Assembly: GCA_011048835.1 (NCBI GenBank)
Contig: DSDF01000023.1
Span: 1-45,609, forward strand
Length of the DNA stretch: 45,609 nt
Direction of reading: 5' to 3'
DNA from: Methanoculleus sp.
Lineage (GTDB): Archaea; Halobacteriota; Methanomicrobia; Methanomicrobiales; Methanomicrobiaceae
Shown one piece after another: positions 38,682 to 45,368 of the stretch. The position numbers were made by a program, and so were the translations under genes. The notes beneath the pieces are model-generated. The model was not told where the DNA came from, did not search any database, and worked only from the letters and a program-made list of their open reading frames with translations. How positions within the stretch are numbered: the first letter of the stretch is position 1; each line of letters begins with the position of its first letter.

Positions 38682-39395
38682 CTACAGCCTGCGCAGGGCC
38701 TCAATGCTCCTGATCGCACCCTCGAACGTCGCCACCTCGATGACGGGGGTCGCAGGGCTGTTCCTGCGCACCGCTTCCATCACCGGCGCAAAATCGATGG
38801 TGCCGTCGCCCACGGCGGTATGGGCGTCTTCGTTGCCGTTGTTGTCGTGGAGGTGGTAGTGCGCGGCCGGGTACTCGATCCAGTGCTCCAGGCAGCCGTT
38901 GGTGTGCGCATGCCCGACGTCGAGGGCCAGACCGACGCCGTCGAGCATGGGGAGCTCGTCGGGGGTGCGAAGGAAAAAGTGCCCCCAGTTAGGCATGTTT
39001 TCCATGAAAAAGGTGACTGAGCGCTCGTCTGCAGCGATCTTCAGCTCCTCGAGGGAGATCCTGAACTGGCCGATCGCCGCTTCCCGCACCTCCTGCCAGG
39101 CGCAGTAGCCCGGATGCACCACCACCCCCGCGTCCGCCTCGGCGGCGATCTCGAAGCACCGGGTGATCACCTCCACGCTCGCGCGCCGGATGGGTGTGAG
39201 CAGGCTGGCGATATTGACGCTCCGTGCGGGGGCGTGGATGAAATAGCGGAAGCTGAACGTTTCAAGAATATCCGGACCGTCGAGAAAATGGAGCCCCCCG
39301 TCGACGACTTCCACGGTATCGGTTACCGTCTCGAGCTGTTCGAGCGCCGCAGACAGGGGTGTGTGCTGCAGGCAACAGGTGGACACCCCGAACAT
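38682..39395 (-). CDS. Sugar phosphate isomerase/epimerase-like TIM-barrel protein
   Basis: The 237-residue protein matches the xylose-isomerase-like/AP-endonuclease-2 barrel family (COG1082): MFGVSTCCLQHTPLSAALEQ at the start, DTVEVVDGGLHF on strand 2, VVVHPGYCAW, TFFMENMPNW and VGLALDVGHAH with candidate metal ligands His, Glu and Asp, and HYHLHDNNGNEDAHTAVGDG near the C-terminus. In archaea such genes are uncharacterised and could be isomerases or lyases. It ends close to tRNA-Thr and starts 32 bases downstream of the DUF134 gene's stop on the same strand, so it may be last in that operon. Confidence 0.88.
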   Translation of the reverse strand: MFGVSTCCLQHTPLSAALEQLETVTDTVEVVDGGLHFLDGPDILETFSFRYFIHAPARSVNIASLLTPIRRASVEVITRCFEIAAEADAGVVVHPGYCAWQEVREAAIGQFRISLEELKIAADERSVTFFMENMPNWGHFFLRTPDELPMLDGVGLALDVGHAHTNGCLEHWIEYPAAHYHLHDNNGNEDAHTAVGDGTIDFAPVMEAVRRNSPATPVIEVATFEGAIRSIEALRRL

Positions 39396-39426
39396 AGCTT
39401 ATCGTATCGCCCGCGAACAAAAGAGA

Positions 39427-39804
39427 TTATTCATCTTCATCGAGCTCGGTGGCGGGGATGCCGCAGGTGTCCCGCATGATATCCTCGCACCCGGCGATCT
39501 CGATGATCCTGCCATGCACGAGGGCATCGGCCACCTTCCGCCGCGCCTCGTGGAGGTCGCGCCAGACCGTCTTCCTCGACACCCCGAGGGCGAGGGCGGC
39601 CTCCTCCTGCGTGAGCCCCTGCAGGTCGACGAGCCGGAGCACTTCGACCTCGTCGGGGCGCAAACTGACCATGCCGGCGGGCGGGCCGCCGTTCCGGCAC
39701 ACCGGGGCAAAGCACCGGTACCGGAAGCCGGGCTCGCAGAAGCGCTCGACCCTGCACCTCCCCCGGCCTCGCCGGAACCCGTGCCCGAACGGCTGTCCGT
39801 TCAT
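39427..39804 (-). CDS. DUF134 protein, HTH regulator (UPF0251)
   Basis: The 125-residue protein belongs to the DUF134/COG1342 group: an Arg- and Cys-rich N-terminus (RRGRGRCRVERFCEPGFRYR, then CFAPVC) followed by a sigma-70 region-4-like helix-turn-helix (LRPDEVEVLRLVDLQGLTQE, then EAALALGVSRKTVWRDL). The Cys residues before the HTH may hold a metal or Fe-S site. ATG 39804 overlaps the upstream ATPase stop (ATGA). It is probably a DNA-binding regulator of its own operon, which handles Fe-S-like clusters. An open-frame extension of 11 residues upstream is discarded. Confidence 0.88.
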   Translation of the reverse strand: MNGQPFGHGFRRGRGRCRVERFCEPGFRYRCFAPVCRNGGPPAGMVSLRPDEVEVLRLVDLQGLTQEEAALALGVSRKTVWRDLHEARRKVADALVHGRIIEIAGCEDIMRDTCGIPATELDEDE

Positions 39805-40670
39805 TCTCTCCCCAGCGCCGCTGCAAGGGTATCCCACATCGCACGCAGCGCGTCCGCGGCAGGACAGTCGTATGCGGTCACCGGCGTTCGGTTCCTTATC
39901 GCCTCGATCACCGTCGGATCGAAGGGTATCCTGCCCACCACAGGGATCCCTTCGTCGTCGCAGTATTTCTCGATCCGTGCGGCGACCGACTCTTCGAGAT
40001 TGTATTTATTGATTGCAACATACATATCCACGCCGAAATTGCGCGCCACCTTCACCACCCGGCCGAGGTCGTGGAGGCCCGATGTGCTCGGTTCGGTGAC
40101 GATGAGCACAGCATCCATCCCGGTGACCGTTGCGATGAGCGGGCACCCGATGCCGGGCGGCCCGTCGGTGATCAGGAGATCTCGGTCGGCGGCACGCTCA
40201 TTGACACGCTTCTTCACCTCCGAGACCAGAAGGCCCGAAGTCCCCGAGCCGGGCTCAAGGCGCGCGTGAGCAAGGGGGCCTCGATCGGTGCGGGAATAAA
40301 AGATCTCGCCGCTCACCCGGTCCTTCATGGCAGTTGCGTCCGCCGGGCAGACGAGGGTGCAGACCGCACACCCCTCGCATTTGACCGGGTCGACGTAAAA
40401 CCGTTCATCCCTGTACTCGATAGCCCCGAACCGGCAGTATTCCTCGCAGTTGCCGCACTGGATGCAGAGGTCCTGGTCAATGTCGGCCACCTGCATCCCC
40501 CGGTACGCCTCGGTGGTCTCGATCTCGGGCTCGAACAGCAGCTCGAGGTTTGCCGCATCCACATCGCAGTCCGCAAAGACCAGATCGCCTTCTGCAAGAG
40601 TTGCGAGCGCACCCGTAATCATGGTCTTTCCCGTGCCGCCCTTGCCGCTGATGACCGCGATCCTCTTCAT
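39801..40670 (-). CDS. P-loop ATPase with inserted ferredoxin domain (COG1149), copy 2
   Basis: The 289-residue protein is a MinD/Mrp-superfamily ATPase whose deviant Walker A (ISGKGGTGKTMITG) opens the sequence and which carries two 4Fe-4S clusters inserted at residues 69-110 (CIQCGNCEEYC and CEGCAVCTLVCP). DLLITDGPPGIGCPLIATVT and VTEPSTSGLHDLGRVV are the Walker B and switch regions. The family is linked to Fe-S protein maturation or redox signalling. It overlaps the upstream paralog by ATGA and the DUF134 gene by ATGA. Its partner is presumably the adjacent paralog, with which it may form a heterodimer. Confidence 0.92.
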   Translation of the reverse strand: MKRIAVISGKGGTGKTMITGALATLAEGDLVFADCDVDAANLELLFEPEIETTEAYRGMQVADIDQDLCIQCGNCEEYCRFGAIEYRDERFYVDPVKCEGCAVCTLVCPADATAMKDRVSGEIFYSRTDRGPLAHARLEPGSGTSGLLVSEVKKRVNERAADRDLLITDGPPGIGCPLIATVTGMDAVLIVTEPSTSGLHDLGRVVKVARNFGVDMYVAINKYNLEESVAARIEKYCDDEGIPVVGRIPFDPTVIEAIRNRTPVTAYDCPAADALRAMWDTLAAALGRE

Positions 40671-41518
40671 TGTGCACCTCCCGTGCGTGTGCAGATATCG
40701 TCGAGGAGGTTGACGAACTCATCCTGCCATTCGGGCATGGCGACGGAGAACAGGTCTCCCCTGCTCTGGAGCCGTGCGATCTCGCGGTCGAAGGGAATCT
40801 TCATCTGAATGGGGAGACCCGCTTTTCGGCAGAAAGCCTCGGTCTCGTCATCCTCTCCGTCGCTGCGGTTGATCACCACGCCGGCGGGAATGCCGAGCTT
40901 CCGCACCACCTCTGCGGCCAGCCGCAGATCGTGCAGCCCGAACGGTGTCGACTCGGTGACCAGCACCACGTAATCCGATCCCTCGATCGTCTCGATCACC
41001 GGGCATGCCGTTCCCGGGGAGGAGTCGTAGATGACAAGATCATTGCCCTCCGCTGCCTCCTTCGCCGCCTTGATGACGGGTATCCCGTTGGGTTCGCCTT
41101 CATTGAGCACTCCCGAGATGAGGCGCAGGTGCTCGTCGACGGGTGCATCCCATACCTTCCCGATCACCCGTTCGGTCTCGGAAATCGCCTCGTTCGGGCA
41201 GATAATCCGGCAGCCGCCGCATGCGTGACAGAGATCTTTGAAGAACAGAATCTGTTTCGGGAGCACGGCGATTGCCCCGTATCGGCAGAAATCCCCGCAC
41301 TTTCCGCAGAGATCGCACCTCTCCATATCAAAGGCGGGATTGAGGACCGTCACCTCGGATTCGCTCGTATCGCCCGGGAAGAAGAGGTGGAGGTTGGGTT
41401 CCTCCACGTCGCAGTCGACCAGCACGACATCGCGGCTCCTGGAGATGCTCCATGCAAAGTTTGCGGAAAACGTGCTTTTTCCGGTCCCTCCCTTGCCGCT
41501 CGCCACCACGATTTTCAT
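40667..41518 (-). CDS. P-loop ATPase with inserted ferredoxin domain (COG1149), copy 1
   Basis: The 283-residue paralog of the following gene has VASGKGGTGKSTFSANFAWS, two inserted 4Fe-4S sites (CDLCGKCGDFC and CHACGGCRIICP) and VIYDSSPGTACPVIETIEGS plus VTESTPFGLHDLRLAAEVV. ATG 41518 aligns with the paralog; four extra codons are open upstream. Tandem paralogs of this type are a standing pair in methanogens. It follows the NifX-like gene by 15 bases and overlaps copy 2 by ATGA, so the operon is NifX-like, copy 1, copy 2, DUF134. Confidence 0.92.
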   Translation of the reverse strand: MKIVVASGKGGTGKSTFSANFAWSISRSRDVVLVDCDVEEPNLHLFFPGDTSESEVTVLNPAFDMERCDLCGKCGDFCRYGAIAVLPKQILFFKDLCHACGGCRIICPNEAISETERVIGKVWDAPVDEHLRLISGVLNEGEPNGIPVIKAAKEAAEGNDLVIYDSSPGTACPVIETIEGSDYVVLVTESTPFGLHDLRLAAEVVRKLGIPAGVVINRSDGEDDETEAFCRKAGLPIQMKIPFDREIARLQSRGDLFSVAMPEWQDEFVNLLDDICTRTGGAQ

Positions 41519-41533
41519 ATGCCGCACCACACC

Positions 41534-41869
41534 TCACAGGATGCGGTTGAGCTGGTTTTCCCGGTATGCTGCCACTGCCTCCCGCACCGTGCTCCCGGCG
41601 GTGGCCTGATACACCTCGATGCCGGCCCCTTCGATCGCCCGGCGGGCATTGCCTCCCAGCTGGCCGGTGACCAGGACGGTCGCGCCATGGTCGATGAGCA
41701 CCTGCGCCGACCGTGGCCCGACTCCCCCGGCAGCATCGGCAAACGCGTTCGTCTCCGCCGTATAGGTATCCTGTTCGCTATCATGAAAGAGAAAGAAAGG
41801 TGCGCGGCCGAACCGCTCCTCCACCTGTGCGTCAGGTGTATCTCCTTTGGCAGTGATGCACATTTTCAT
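41534..41869 (-). CDS. NifX/NafY-like dinitrogenase iron-molybdenum cofactor-binding-domain protein (COG1433)
   Basis: The 111-residue single-domain protein (MKMCITAKGDTPDAQVEERF, then GRAPFFLFHD, GPRSAQVLIDHGATVLVTGQ, LGGNARRAIEGAGIEVYQA) matches the NifX/NafY/VnfX fold found as stand-alone proteins in archaea. Such proteins bind metallocofactors or Fe-S clusters in transit. It leads the operon of two COG1149 ATPases and DUF134, which is the strongest clue to function. No nif genes are nearby, so it need not be about nitrogen fixation. Confidence 0.9.
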   Translation of the reverse strand: MKMCITAKGDTPDAQVEERFGRAPFFLFHDSEQDTYTAETNAFADAAGGVGPRSAQVLIDHGATVLVTGQLGGNARRAIEGAGIEVYQATAGSTVREAVAAYRENQLNRIL

Positions 41870-41918
41870 GCTATTTTACCTCAAAGTCAATTATTTCTGT
41901 AGTGGTAAGCATGCAGAA

Positions 41919-41932
41919 CTAAATAACTGGCG
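41919..41932. promoter_or_regulatory. Divergent promoter region between NifX-like and radical SAM genes
   Basis: ACTAAATAACTGG (about 41918-41930) offers a TATA-like core on both strands, about 35 bases before the radical SAM ATG (41957) and about 50 bases before the NifX-like ATG (41869). The two genes face away from each other over an 87-base gap, so a shared regulator is possible. Confidence 0.4.
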
Positions 41933-41956
41933 ATCGTACAACCTGTACCAAACACT

Positions 41957-42892
41957 ATGAATTACCATCACCTCTTCGGCCCGGTGCCCTCGAGACGACT
42001 GGGGGTGTCGCTGGGCATTGACCTCGTCCCCCACAAGACCTGTAACCTCAATTGCATCTACTGCGAGTGCGGTCCCACCACCGATCTCACCCTCGAGCGG
42101 CGCGAGTATGTGCCGACCGATCGCGTGCTCGCGGAACTGGACGATTTTCTTGAAGGGAAGCCAGCACTCGACTATATCACGTTCTCGGGCTCCGGCGAAC
42201 CGACGCTTCATGCCGGCATCGGCACCATCATCCGGCATATCAGGACCCACCACCCGGCATACCGCATCGCTGTGCTCACCAACGGCTGCCTCTTTTTCGA
42301 AAAAGATGTCAGGGATGACGTGCGGGATGCGGATGTGATCATCCCCTCGCTTGACGCCGCCACCGCGAGGACGTTCAGGCGGATCGACCGCCCCCACCGC
42401 GGCCTTGCCATAGACGATATCATATCCGGCCTCGTGTCGCTGAGAGAGGAATTTTCGGGAGCGATCTGGCTTGAAGTGTTCATCATCCCCGGTATCAACG
42501 ACACCGACGAAGAACTCGCCGCACTGAAGCGTGCAATCGAGCGCATCCGCCCCGATAAAATCCAGATCAACACCCTCGATCGGCCGGGCGTGGTGGACTG
42601 GATCCGCCCTGCAACCGCAGCGGAGATGGCGCACGTGGTTGCATCGCTTCATGTGCCCGGCGTGCACATTATCGGGCGGCCCGCCTCCCGCACCGGCATT
42701 GCCAGTTTTTCGGGCGATCTCAGGGCTGCCATCCTGCAGACCCTGCGCCGGCGCCCCTGCACGGTCGATGACCTTGCGAAGGTGTTCGGGCTGCACCCGA
42801 ACGAGATCAACAAGTACATCCAGGTCCTTGTCGAAGAAGGCGCAATCCAGGAAAAGCGGGAAGAACGAGGGATATTCTTCGTCGCAACCTGA
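41957..42892 (+). CDS. Radical SAM protein with C-terminal winged helix (COG0731-like)
   Basis: The 311-residue enzyme has the 4Fe-4S/SAM motif KTCNLNCIYCECG (C-x3-C-x2-C) at about residue 33, preceded by GPVPSRRLGVSLGIDLVP, then ITFSGSGEPTLHAGIGTI and a barrel ending around residue 245. The C-terminal 60 residues form a winged-helix domain (RRRPCTVDDLAKVFGLHP, then NEINKYIQVLVEEGAI). The N-terminal text resembles archaeal proteins near the wyosine/TYW1 group; substrate is unknown. It is divergent from the NifX-like/COG1149 operon and upstream of a MerR-like gene on the same strand. Confidence 0.88.
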   Translation: MNYHHLFGPVPSRRLGVSLGIDLVPHKTCNLNCIYCECGPTTDLTLERREYVPTDRVLAELDDFLEGKPALDYITFSGSGEPTLHAGIGTIIRHIRTHHPAYRIAVLTNGCLFFEKDVRDDVRDADVIIPSLDAATARTFRRIDRPHRGLAIDDIISGLVSLREEFSGAIWLEVFIIPGINDTDEELAALKRAIERIRPDKIQINTLDRPGVVDWIRPATAAEMAHVVASLHVPGVHIIGRPASRTGIASFSGDLRAAILQTLRRRPCTVDDLAKVFGLHPNEINKYIQVLVEEGAIQEKREERGIFFVAT

Positions 42893-42950
42893 AGCGATCG
42901 TTTCCGGGCGCATCGTTTTTATAGCAGCACCCCGATGATACGACACGACC

Positions 42951-43244
42951 ATGAGGATCGACTACTTCCGCATCCCCGACATCGCCAAACGGACGGGAAT
43001 CCCCGAGCAGACGGTGGCAGAATATGCGCAGACCTTCGATGAATTTCTCACCTATGCGACTGACGCGGATACCCGGTACTACACGCCCGATGCCATGCTG
43101 CTCATGAGGAAAATCGATTCGTACGTGCGGGAGGGGAAAACCACCGAGGAGATCAGGGAAGCCATCGACCGCGAGTATCCCCAGCTGCGCGAGCAGAAGG
43201 AAATTCCTTCGCAGGAGACCGCGTGCCCCGAGGATGTGGAATAG
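42951..43244 (+). CDS. MerR-like helix-turn-helix protein
   Basis: The 97-residue protein starts with a MerR-type winged helix (FRIPDIAKRTGIPEQTVAEY), followed by RYYTPDAMLLMRKIDSYVRE, EGKTTEEIREAID and a short acidic tail. It lacks the long coiled coil of classical MerR regulators, so it may dimerise differently or bind RNA. It starts 58 bases after the radical SAM gene on the same strand and is convergent with MscS. It could regulate the radical SAM gene or the divergent operon; that is inference. Confidence 0.85.
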   Translation: MRIDYFRIPDIAKRTGIPEQTVAEYAQTFDEFLTYATDADTRYYTPDAMLLMRKIDSYVREGKTTEEIREAIDREYPQLREQKEIPSQETACPEDVE

Positions 43245-43269
43245 AATAAAAAAGAGTGAGGAGATCGTT

Positions 43270-44301
43270 TCAGGGTTGGTCCCGGATGTGGACGTCCATC
43301 TGGGGGAAGGGAATCTCGATTCCCTCCGCGACAAACCGCTCGTTGATGCAGTAGTTGATGTGATCCTTGACATCCCATGCCATATTAAACTGCCTTGCCC
43401 AGAGCACCATCATGAAATCGAGGCTCGAAGCCCCGAATTCGAGGAAGTAGACGCTTGGTGCGGGGTCGAGGAGGACGTAGTCCGAAGCCCGCGCCGCTTC
43501 GTTGCCGATCTCGAGGAGGATTTCCTTCACCTTCCGCACATCGCTGCCGTAGGCCACCGAGACCGGGATCTTGATTTTCAGCTTGATATCGGGCATGGCG
43601 TAGTTGGTGATGATGCTGTTGGCAATCTTCGAGTTCGGGATGGTGAGCAGCTGGTGGTCGAGGGTCTGGATGCGGGTGCTGCGCGGCCCGATGCTGATCA
43701 CGTCACCGAGATACCCTTCGATCTTGACCCTGTCGTTCATTTTGAACGGCTTGTCGATAAGGATGAGCGCACCCCCGAAAAAGTTTGATATCAGGTCCTG
43801 TGCGGCGAGGGCGATGGCGAGCCCAAAGATCCCCGCCCCGGCGATAAGCGGGGTGATGTCAATTCCGAGATAGCTGAGCACGAGCAGGAAGGCGATGAAC
43901 CAGATGATGTAGCGTGCGGCATGCTCGAGAAATGCGATGATCCGGTCATCCAGGTCCCCTTCGATCCGTGCGGCCATCCACGATCCATAGAGGGCGAGTA
44001 CGCTTTGCGCAAACGTGGAGACAACCCATGCCCCGAGGAGGATGAAAAACGCCCCGAGATATTTGCTGTTCCGGATCCACTCGTAGCCGGCGGGGAGCTC
44101 GACCACGCCAACGGCCATATAGAGGGAAACAACGAAAATGGCGATGATCAGCGGTCTTCCCACGGCAAGGACGAGAATATCGTCGAACTTTGACTCGGTC
44201 AGGTCCGCCCGCGCCGAAAGCCAGCGGTAGATCTGGTAGGCAACAAGAGAACCGACCAATCCCACGATTAGAATGAGCACTCCAACCCAAAGGTCAGCCA
44301 T
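43270..44301 (-). CDS. Mechanosensitive ion channel, MscS family
   Basis: The 343-residue channel has about five N-terminal membrane spans, then the MscS pore and beta domain: LIAGAGIFGLAIALAAQDLI, NFFGGALILIDKPFKMNDRV and KIEGYLGDVISIGPRSTRIQ with IPNSKIANSIITNY. The C-terminal alpha/beta domain ends with EGIEIPFPQMDVHI. It releases solutes on hypo-osmotic shock. The gene is single and convergent with the MerR-like gene. Confidence 0.93.
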   Translation of the reverse strand: MADLWVGVLILIVGLVGSLVAYQIYRWLSARADLTESKFDDILVLAVGRPLIIAIFVVSLYMAVGVVELPAGYEWIRNSKYLGAFFILLGAWVVSTFAQSVLALYGSWMAARIEGDLDDRIIAFLEHAARYIIWFIAFLLVLSYLGIDITPLIAGAGIFGLAIALAAQDLISNFFGGALILIDKPFKMNDRVKIEGYLGDVISIGPRSTRIQTLDHQLLTIPNSKIANSIITNYAMPDIKLKIKIPVSVAYGSDVRKVKEILLEIGNEAARASDYVLLDPAPSVYFLEFGASSLDFMMVLWARQFNMAWDVKDHINYCINERFVAEGIEIPFPQMDVHIRDQP

Positions 44302-44302
44302 A

Positions 44303-44342
44303 GTGTATATTTTTGGTCTGGAATCCGTATATATGAGATGTT
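44303..44342 (+). promoter_or_regulatory. TATA box of hypD
   Basis: GTGTATATTTTT (about 44303-44314) lies 30-40 bases upstream of the hypD ATG at 44343, consistent with a leaderless or short-leader transcript; another TATA-like word (GTATATATG, 44327-44335) is too close to the start. The region is shared with the divergent MscS gene. Confidence 0.45.
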
Positions 44343-45368
44343 ATGTCGCGGGGAAAGGAAATTATCGAGAGCCTCAGGACACTGGCGGACAGGAACTATG
44401 CGTTCATGCACATCTGCGGCACCCATGAGGCGTCCATCGCCCGGTCGGGGCTGCGCAGCGTGCTGCCCGGCAATCTCACGATCGTCATGGGGCCGGGCTG
44501 TCCTGTCTGCATCACGCCGCAGGGGGAGATCGATGCCGCACTCGAACTGGCGGATAAAGACTGCATTCTTGCCACCTATGGCGATCTCCTTCGGGTTCCG
44601 GGGTCAGAGGGATCGCTCGAGTCCTGCCGGGGCGATGTGCGGGTGGTGCAGGGCGTGCACAAGGCCGTGGAGATCGCGGAGAAGACCGACCGCGAGGTGG
44701 TCTTTCTATCGGTGGGATTCGAGACCACGGCACCCACCGTCGCCGCCACCATCCTCCAATCGCCCCCGGAAAATTTCAGCATCCTGAGCCTCCATCGGCT
44801 CGTTCCCCCGGCGATGCAGTGGCTGCTGGAGCAGGGGGAAGCGAAGCTGGACGGGTTCATGCTGCCGGGCCATGTCTGCGCCGTGATGGGCTACGAGGAA
44901 TACGAGAAGTTCCCCGTTCCGCAGGTAGTGGCGGGCTTTGAGCCCGAAGACATCCTCCTCGGCCTGCTGATGCTCGTCAACCAGGTCCGCGAGGGGAGGG
45001 CAGAGGTGGAGAACGCCTACCCGCGGGTCGTCAGCAGGGAAGGCAACGTCAGGGCAAAGAAACTGATGTATGAAGTATTCGAGCCCTATGACGCGGAATG
45101 GCGGGGGTTTCCGGTCATCCCCCGGTCAGGCCTGCGGTTACAAGAGCAATTCGCGGCTTACGATGCGCAGACGAAATTCGATGTGGAAATCCGGCACGTG
45201 GACACGCACTCGGCCTGCATCTGCGACCGGGTGCTGCGCGGCGTGGCACGGCCCACCGACTGCAAACTCTTCGGCACGGCGTGCACGCCCCGGAAACCGG
45301 TGGGCGCGTGCATGGTGAGCCACGAGGGCGCATGCAAGATATGGTACCTCTACCAGAGGAACCCCTGA
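44343..45368 (+). CDS. hypD: Hydrogenase maturation factor HypD
   Basis: The 341-residue Fe-S protein assembles the Fe(CN)2CO unit of NiFe hydrogenases with HypC. It carries the family hallmarks CGTHE (residues 25-29), GPGCPVCI (residues 50-57), GFETTAP, LPGHVCAVMGYEEYE and the cysteines of the 4Fe-4S site near the C-terminus (HSACICDRVL, LFGTACTPRKPVGACMVSHE). The length is normal. It starts from its own promoter and is followed by a tRNA-Arg. Other hyp genes are not in the window. It is consistent with a hydrogenotrophic methanogen. Confidence 0.97.
   Translation: MSRGKEIIESLRTLADRNYAFMHICGTHEASIARSGLRSVLPGNLTIVMGPGCPVCITPQGEIDAALELADKDCILATYGDLLRVPGSEGSLESCRGDVRVVQGVHKAVEIAEKTDREVVFLSVGFETTAPTVAATILQSPPENFSILSLHRLVPPAMQWLLEQGEAKLDGFMLPGHVCAVMGYEEYEKFPVPQVVAGFEPEDILLGLLMLVNQVREGRAEVENAYPRVVSREGNVRAKKLMYEVFEPYDAEWRGFPVIPRSGLRLQEQFAAYDAQTKFDVEIRHVDTHSACICDRVLRGVARPTDCKLFGTACTPRKPVGACMVSHEGACKIWYLYQRNP

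Follow-up and report, generated by a model that had tools for sequence, protein, structure and literature searches.

What is the function of an operon in Methanoculleus sp. that encodes a NifX-like protein, two ferredoxin-bearing ATPases (ATPA and ATPB) and a DUF134 protein, and from which the gene of a radical SAM protein diverges? The operon lies in contig DSDF01000023.1, of which the whole stretch of 45,609 nucleotides was analyzed (hereafter, the window). A preliminary description of this DNA regarded these genes as an uncharacterised metallocluster system. Our results show that the core, formed by the NifX-like protein and the two ATPases, is of a known kind: it is an archaeal version of the core known from the orange protein (ORP) module of anaerobes (Orp8 with Orp3/Orp4). 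Assembly or delivery of a metal or Fe-S cluster is still the best reading; the word "uncharacterised" does not apply, since the core is the ORP core, which has been described for Desulfovibrio (PMC6345978) and noted in Archaeoglobus fulgidus (PMC3949148). Judging from the genes, we give a probability of about 0.68 that the locus is an ORP-type module, probably regulated by DUF134, whose task is to assemble or carry a metal-sulfur cluster, the radical SAM protein being an accessory.

The NifX-like protein belongs to the orange protein clade

The NifX-like protein was compared with proteins of solved structure. It matched the D. gigas orange protein (PDB 2wfb) with 6.4e-14, and an RFGRA stretch is present in both. 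The protein 1rdu, determined by nuclear magnetic resonance, scored slightly above 2wfb. In a tree of 90 rows, the NifX-like protein and 2wfb were placed together in a clade of 39 rows (support 96/97), which also holds NifX proteins that are linked to the core in other archaea and in Bacteroidota. The two other NifX domains of the genome, 1rdu and 1eo1 were outside this clade. The tree was built on few columns; the 39-row clade is well supported and its inner forks are poorly supported. A second NifX-like protein of the same genome (contig C19, L104:12043-12369; the loci compared are numbered L) is of the HFGQC type, belongs to another clade and is encoded away from the core.

The NifX domain, together with the presence of nifB in the genome, might suggest a true NifX that traffics FeMo-co for nitrogenase. 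This possibility was examined in 150 Methanomicrobiales genomes; the statistics of this survey ignore relatedness. Genomes in which an Oxidored_nitro protein scored 445-481 bits, with at least 7 matches (22 of the 150), were taken as nif-positive. The operon was present in 16 of these 22 genomes and in 85 of the 128 others (p 0.63). The best Oxidored_nitro protein of the Methanoculleus genome reached 293 bits, below the range of the nif-positive genomes, and the NifX-like protein groups with ORP. Thus, the presence of the operon is unrelated to canonical nif. The preliminary description had pointed out that no nif gene is adjacent. We rejected the nitrogenase NifX, and a role in FeMo-co trafficking is very improbable. 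The genome encodes four Oxidored_nitro proteins (contigs C97, C5 and C78), none of which scores like canonical NifD or NifK; nifB is on contig C43.

The two ATPases resemble Orp3 and Orp4

Both ATPases contain CbiA and 4Fe-4S domains. In ATPB, the motif SGKGG.GKT and eight ferredoxin-type cysteines are invariant. In the ATPase tree, ATPA and ATPB fell into clades A (support 90/93) and B (94/98), each of which has archaeal and Bacteroidota members. The two clades are anciently separated. They are also separate from Mrp (100/100), and no grouping of ATPA or ATPB with Mrp was found.

In D. vulgaris, Orp3 and Orp4 possess two [4Fe-4S] motifs each and co-purify with Orp8, and MrpORP passes clusters to both of them in vitro (PMC6345978). 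ATPA and ATPB fit this published account, which was the basis of the comparison. In A. fulgidus, the NifX/CbiA genes AF2378-AF2380 are constitutively highly expressed and have already been tied to the D. vulgaris genes (PMC3949148). Because the NifX-like protein shares a clade with 2wfb and the ATPases are paired and carry two [4Fe-4S] sites, and in view of these reports on Orp3, Orp4, Orp8 and A. fulgidus, we conclude that the core is of the ORP type.

The operon and the radical SAM gene in Methanomicrobiales

The order NifX-ATPA-ATPB(-DUF134) recurs across families of Methanomicrobiales, and therefore the arrangement is not due to chance. In several genomes, DUF134 is absent beside the core. 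The radical SAM protein was found in 109 and the operon-type NifX in 101 of the 150 genomes. They occurred together in 95 genomes, where about 73 are expected if they were independent (Fisher p 7e-17). In 25 of these 95 genomes, from six families, no more than 10 kb separates the radical SAM gene from NifX, where chance would give about 0.8 genomes. It is mostly divergent from NifX; at three loci (L075, L092 and L185), it follows DUF134 on the same strand or is next to it. Copies on viral contigs were not found.

The preliminary description had also drawn attention to hypD. If the radical SAM protein and the core served the nearby HypD, the locus would act in [NiFe]-hydrogenase maturation. At ten loci of the order (L064, L072, L077, L079, L089, L103, L116, L123, L139 and L145), HypD is encoded on the same strand as the radical SAM protein at a distance of less than 2 kb, and in three of the ten only 64-68 bases downstream. 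However, this proximity was not seen in the other families of the order, other archaea or bacteria surveyed, and in Methanoculleus-type genomes HypD travels with the radical SAM gene and not with the core. Thus, the proximity of hypD is real at this locus, but the synteny is limited to part of the order. A hydrogenase link was rejected as lineage-limited synteny, and there is very little chance that the module matures hydrogenase. The closeness of the radical SAM gene and HypD (41957-45368 in the window) is also kept at loci that lie apart from the NifX operon.

Linkage beyond the order

A survey of 80 genomes of the host phylum (Halobacteriota), in which relatedness was likewise ignored, detected ATPB in 48, the radical SAM protein in 47 and DUF134, above the cut-off, in 50. 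ATPB and the radical SAM protein were both present in 41 genomes, present singly in 7 and 6, and both absent in 26 (p 2e-9). For ATPB and DUF134, the corresponding numbers were 44, 4 and 6, and 26 (p 2e-11).

Physical linkage was also observed. At L193 and L194, which belong to other families, the core is accompanied by DUF134, Mrp, additional NifX genes, ArsP_2, a protein with a metallo-beta-lactamase fold and the radical SAM protein. Subsets of this extended cluster, the radical SAM gene included, occur at L195, L197, L198, L206 and L224. Pfam matches at L193 were a DtxR-type iron-dependent repressor, DUF364 (heavy-metal chelation), ArsP_2 and Mrp; NifU_N was matched at L196 and ZIP at L206. 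Eight genomes, all from one family, have a second DUF134 gene at a distance of 252-674 bases from the radical SAM gene and on its strand, with the core elsewhere. Among about 65 bacterial loci of the radical SAM protein, three (L118, L122 and L126, all Bacteroidota) have an ORP-type NifX and/or clade A/B ATPases nearby, where about 0.2 are expected by our own estimate (12 kb of 4 Mb) if each genome has one ORP locus. The neighborhood, which the preliminary description proposed to follow across methanogens, is thus conserved far beyond this genome, in the order, the phylum and some bacteria, and on this point the preliminary description passed the check that it had set itself.

Several side observations were made at these loci. 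CDF proteins adjoin ORP-type genes in other archaea (L203 and L206). Glycine-rich DUF5320-like sequences (MPGGDGTGPMG...) recur at L233-L237, L193-L197, L206 and L224, and at L233 such a sequence is apparently fused to the C terminus of the DUF134 protein upstream of the radical SAM gene. A CGGC protein (PF08821) adjoins the radical SAM gene at many of the bacterial loci; it recurs there in Bacteroidota, Spirochaetes and Methanoregula-type archaea (L185, L166, L122, L121, L130, L140 and others). Two PF08821 genes are also present in the window genome, where they lie on contigs other than that of the locus.

The gene content of the related clusters bears on two alternatives. One is metal homeostasis: the module would store, buffer or detoxify metal-sulfide species without making a cofactor, and the transporters and metal-dependent regulators of the related clusters would do the rest. 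ArsP_2 (a putative heavy-metal exporter), CDF, ZIP, DUF364 and the DtxR-type repressor are consistent with this idea, as is the storage of thioferrate by IssA, another NifX-domain protein (PMC8351635). However, the window locus has no transporter, and its NifX-like protein lacks the cationic tail by which IssA reportedly binds thioferrate (PMC6345978). We consider homeostasis unlikely. The other alternative is a role in cell division or positioning, in which the MinD-type ATPases would be responsible for placing some component at the septum or pole, with the NifX-like protein as a sensor or adaptor. The D. vulgaris orp operons were described as putatively septum-positioning (PMC3897727), MrpORP is polar (PMC6345978), and archaeal MinD was the closest profile outside the family, although far under its cut-off. 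Yet both ATPases carry ferredoxin inserts, the relatives' neighbors are Mrp, NifU, DtxR and metal-transporter genes, and the conserved neighborhood contains no division gene at all. Positioning is therefore distinctly improbable.

The radical SAM protein

The radical SAM protein (PF04055, 2.5e-15) has a single CX3CX2C site, and no further invariant cysteine was found among 15 homologues. Since ligands for extra Fe-S clusters were not conserved in these homologues, a NifB-like enzyme was rejected. The preliminary description had assigned a winged helix to the protein. At its C terminus, the match to the helix-turn-helix (HTH) family PF12840 (1.1e-5) fell slightly short of the curated cut-off; in an AlphaFold model (pLDDT 87, pTM 0.79), this end is predicted to form three helices and a beta hairpin, as expected of a winged helix. 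In a Foldseek search with this model, PFL activase, NifB, TYW1, RlmN and viperin scored about equally. These matches to the predicted fold place the protein in the superfamily and give no function. A sequence search found no related solved structure.

The best reading is that the linked radical SAM protein is an accessory enzyme of the core, a role that we propose here. It is unlikely that it goes further and works with the ORP core as a catalyst dedicated to it, which would modify or help build the NifX-borne cluster; anaerobes would then have a radical SAM pathway to a complex metallocluster that is independent of NifB.

Proposed function of the module

In an ORP-type module, the NifX-like protein would, as its family suggests, hold a metal-sulfur cluster, and no fixed cysteines would serve as ligands. 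Each ATPase is predicted to combine two [4Fe-4S] sites with an adjacent nucleotide site of the deviant Walker A type. Driven by ATP and redox, the two may work as a pair to load, reduce or release the NifX-borne cluster, like Mrp/NBP35/NifH-type ATPases; the motifs, the conserved pairing and the co-purification in Desulfovibrio point to this role. In the DUF134 protein (PF02001, 1.4e-20), an RC..P.C region and the HTH are conserved in 26 homologues. Because of the HTH, the cysteines and the linkage, it is a candidate metal- or cluster-responsive regulator, which would sense metal or cluster status and control the operon and perhaps the divergent radical SAM promoter. The radical SAM protein would serve this module as its accessory enzyme.

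Several points weigh against this proposal. Relatedness is not taken into account in the co-occurrence statistics. Because some families lack ATPB, the radical SAM protein and DUF134 alike, the correlation might also stem in part from an anaerobic way of life that the genomes have in common. Physical linkage is independent of this concern. The bacterial linkage, three loci in about 65, is a small number. In 70 of the 95 genomes of the order, the radical SAM gene is not near the core. Methanoculleus-type genomes keep the TIM-barrel gene, the radical SAM gene and HypD close together with the core elsewhere; therefore, part of the proximity between the radical SAM gene and the core may be old synteny. 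Two components of the Desulfovibrio complex are not at the locus: there is no Mrp or Mrp-NifX fusion corresponding to MrpORP (Orp9), as the window proteins scored 26-45 bits against the 450-bit MrpORP cut-off; and a sigma54-dependent regulator between divergent operons is absent, the regulator-like genes being DUF134 and the MerR-like gene. No small gene like that of Orp5 ([2Fe-2S]) was recognised from 38682 to 45368, where no search with the Orp5 sequence was made. Moreover, no archaeal member has a known metal content or complex.

Gene arrangement of the locus

The features are listed in Table 1. All six open reading frames of the preliminary description were found, and its tight four-gene operon with a divergent radical SAM gene was confirmed in frames, domains and spacing. 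The transcription order on the minus strand is NifX-like, ATPA, ATPB and DUF134; on the plus strand, the radical SAM gene is followed by the MerR-like gene. ATGA overlaps join ATPA to ATPB (40667-40670) and ATPB to DUF134 (39801-39804), and 15 bases separate NifX from ATPA. The most likely start codons of ATPA and DUF134 are the ATGs at 41518 and 39804. The A/T core of the TATA-like element is kept across seven aligned intergenic regions.

Table 1. Features of the ORP-type locus and its neighbors in the window
Feature	Positions	Strand	Remarks
Xylose-isomerase-like TIM barrel (PF01261, 2e-23)	38682..39395	-	optional fifth gene, directly downstream of DUF134
DUF134 (PF02001) protein, putative regulator	39427..39804	-	sigma-region-4-like HTH and cysteines
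ATPB, MinD-type P-loop ATPase, clade B	39801..40670	-	inserted 2x[4Fe-4S] ferredoxin, Orp3/Orp4 type
ATPA, second MinD-type ATPase, clade A	40667..41518	-	inserted 2x[4Fe-4S] ferredoxin
NifX-like (PF02579) protein, orange protein clade	41534..41869	-	RFGR motif; no Cys ligands conserved
Divergent promoter region, 87 bases	41870..41956	.	TATA-like CTAAATA at 41919-41925
Radical SAM protein	41957..42892	+	one CX3CX2C site (C29, C33, C36), C-terminal winged-helix-like domain
MerR-like protein	42951..43244	+	neighbor outside the conserved system

Pfam matches were counted above the gathering score; the NifX-like protein matched Nitro_FeMo-Co with 2.4e-21 and the MerR-like protein MerR_1 (PF13411) with 3.4e-7. 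The TIM-barrel gene, which the preliminary description did not include, starts 31 bases past DUF134 on the same strand. Three genera of the host family and one other family have orthologues of it next to DUF134 or ATPB, so that its conservation extends to part of the order. The MerR-like regulator had been counted as part of the system. Close homologues adjoin only in two genomes of the same genus, and the best other homologue (46% identical) is on a different contig from the radical SAM gene of its genome. Thus, the MerR-like gene is a nearly genus-restricted neighbor and was rejected as a component.

Comparison with known systems

The locus shares with the Desulfovibrio ORP complex (DVU2103-DVU2109; Orp3, Orp4, Orp5, Orp8 and MrpORP) an Orp8-type NifX and two ATPases with 2x[4Fe-4S]. 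In contrast, DUF134 and the radical SAM protein are found in place of MrpORP and the sigma54 regulator, and the gene order is archaeal; the locus thus encodes only part of the Desulfovibrio complex. ORP proteins are marked by a bound Mo-Cu-sulfide cluster and by a physical complex. AF2378-AF2380 of A. fulgidus are likewise archaeal genes for NifX and CbiA-type ATPases, and DUF134 or radical SAM partners are not described in the relevant passage of PMC3949148. NifX/NafY of nitrogenase assembly have the same Nitro_FeMo-Co domain, whereas the window locus has no adjacent nif genes. IssA of Pyrococcus furiosus also has a NifX domain, but the window protein ends ...YRENQLNRIL without a cationic C-terminal tail, and identity with IssA was rejected. 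An ORP-cluster NifX of Methanocellales (L180:5649-6227) has an Arg/Gly-rich C-terminal tail that recalls that of IssA. NifB and other cofactor-building radical SAM enzymes share the radical SAM fold; unlike NifB, the window protein has only one invariant CX3CX2C site and a winged-helix-like C-terminal domain.

No report of a partnership with DUF134 or the radical SAM protein was found in the literature searched, which left most subscription journals outside its scope. As far as we could check, the core is known and its link to one radical SAM family and DUF134 is new. The ORP complex is specific to anaerobes, and its recurrent partners make its role specifically testable. These are the radical SAM family and DUF134, to which relatives add Mrp, NifU, a DtxR-type repressor and metal transporters. 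The linkage ties a widespread uncharacterised radical SAM family and a DUF to metal-cluster biology.

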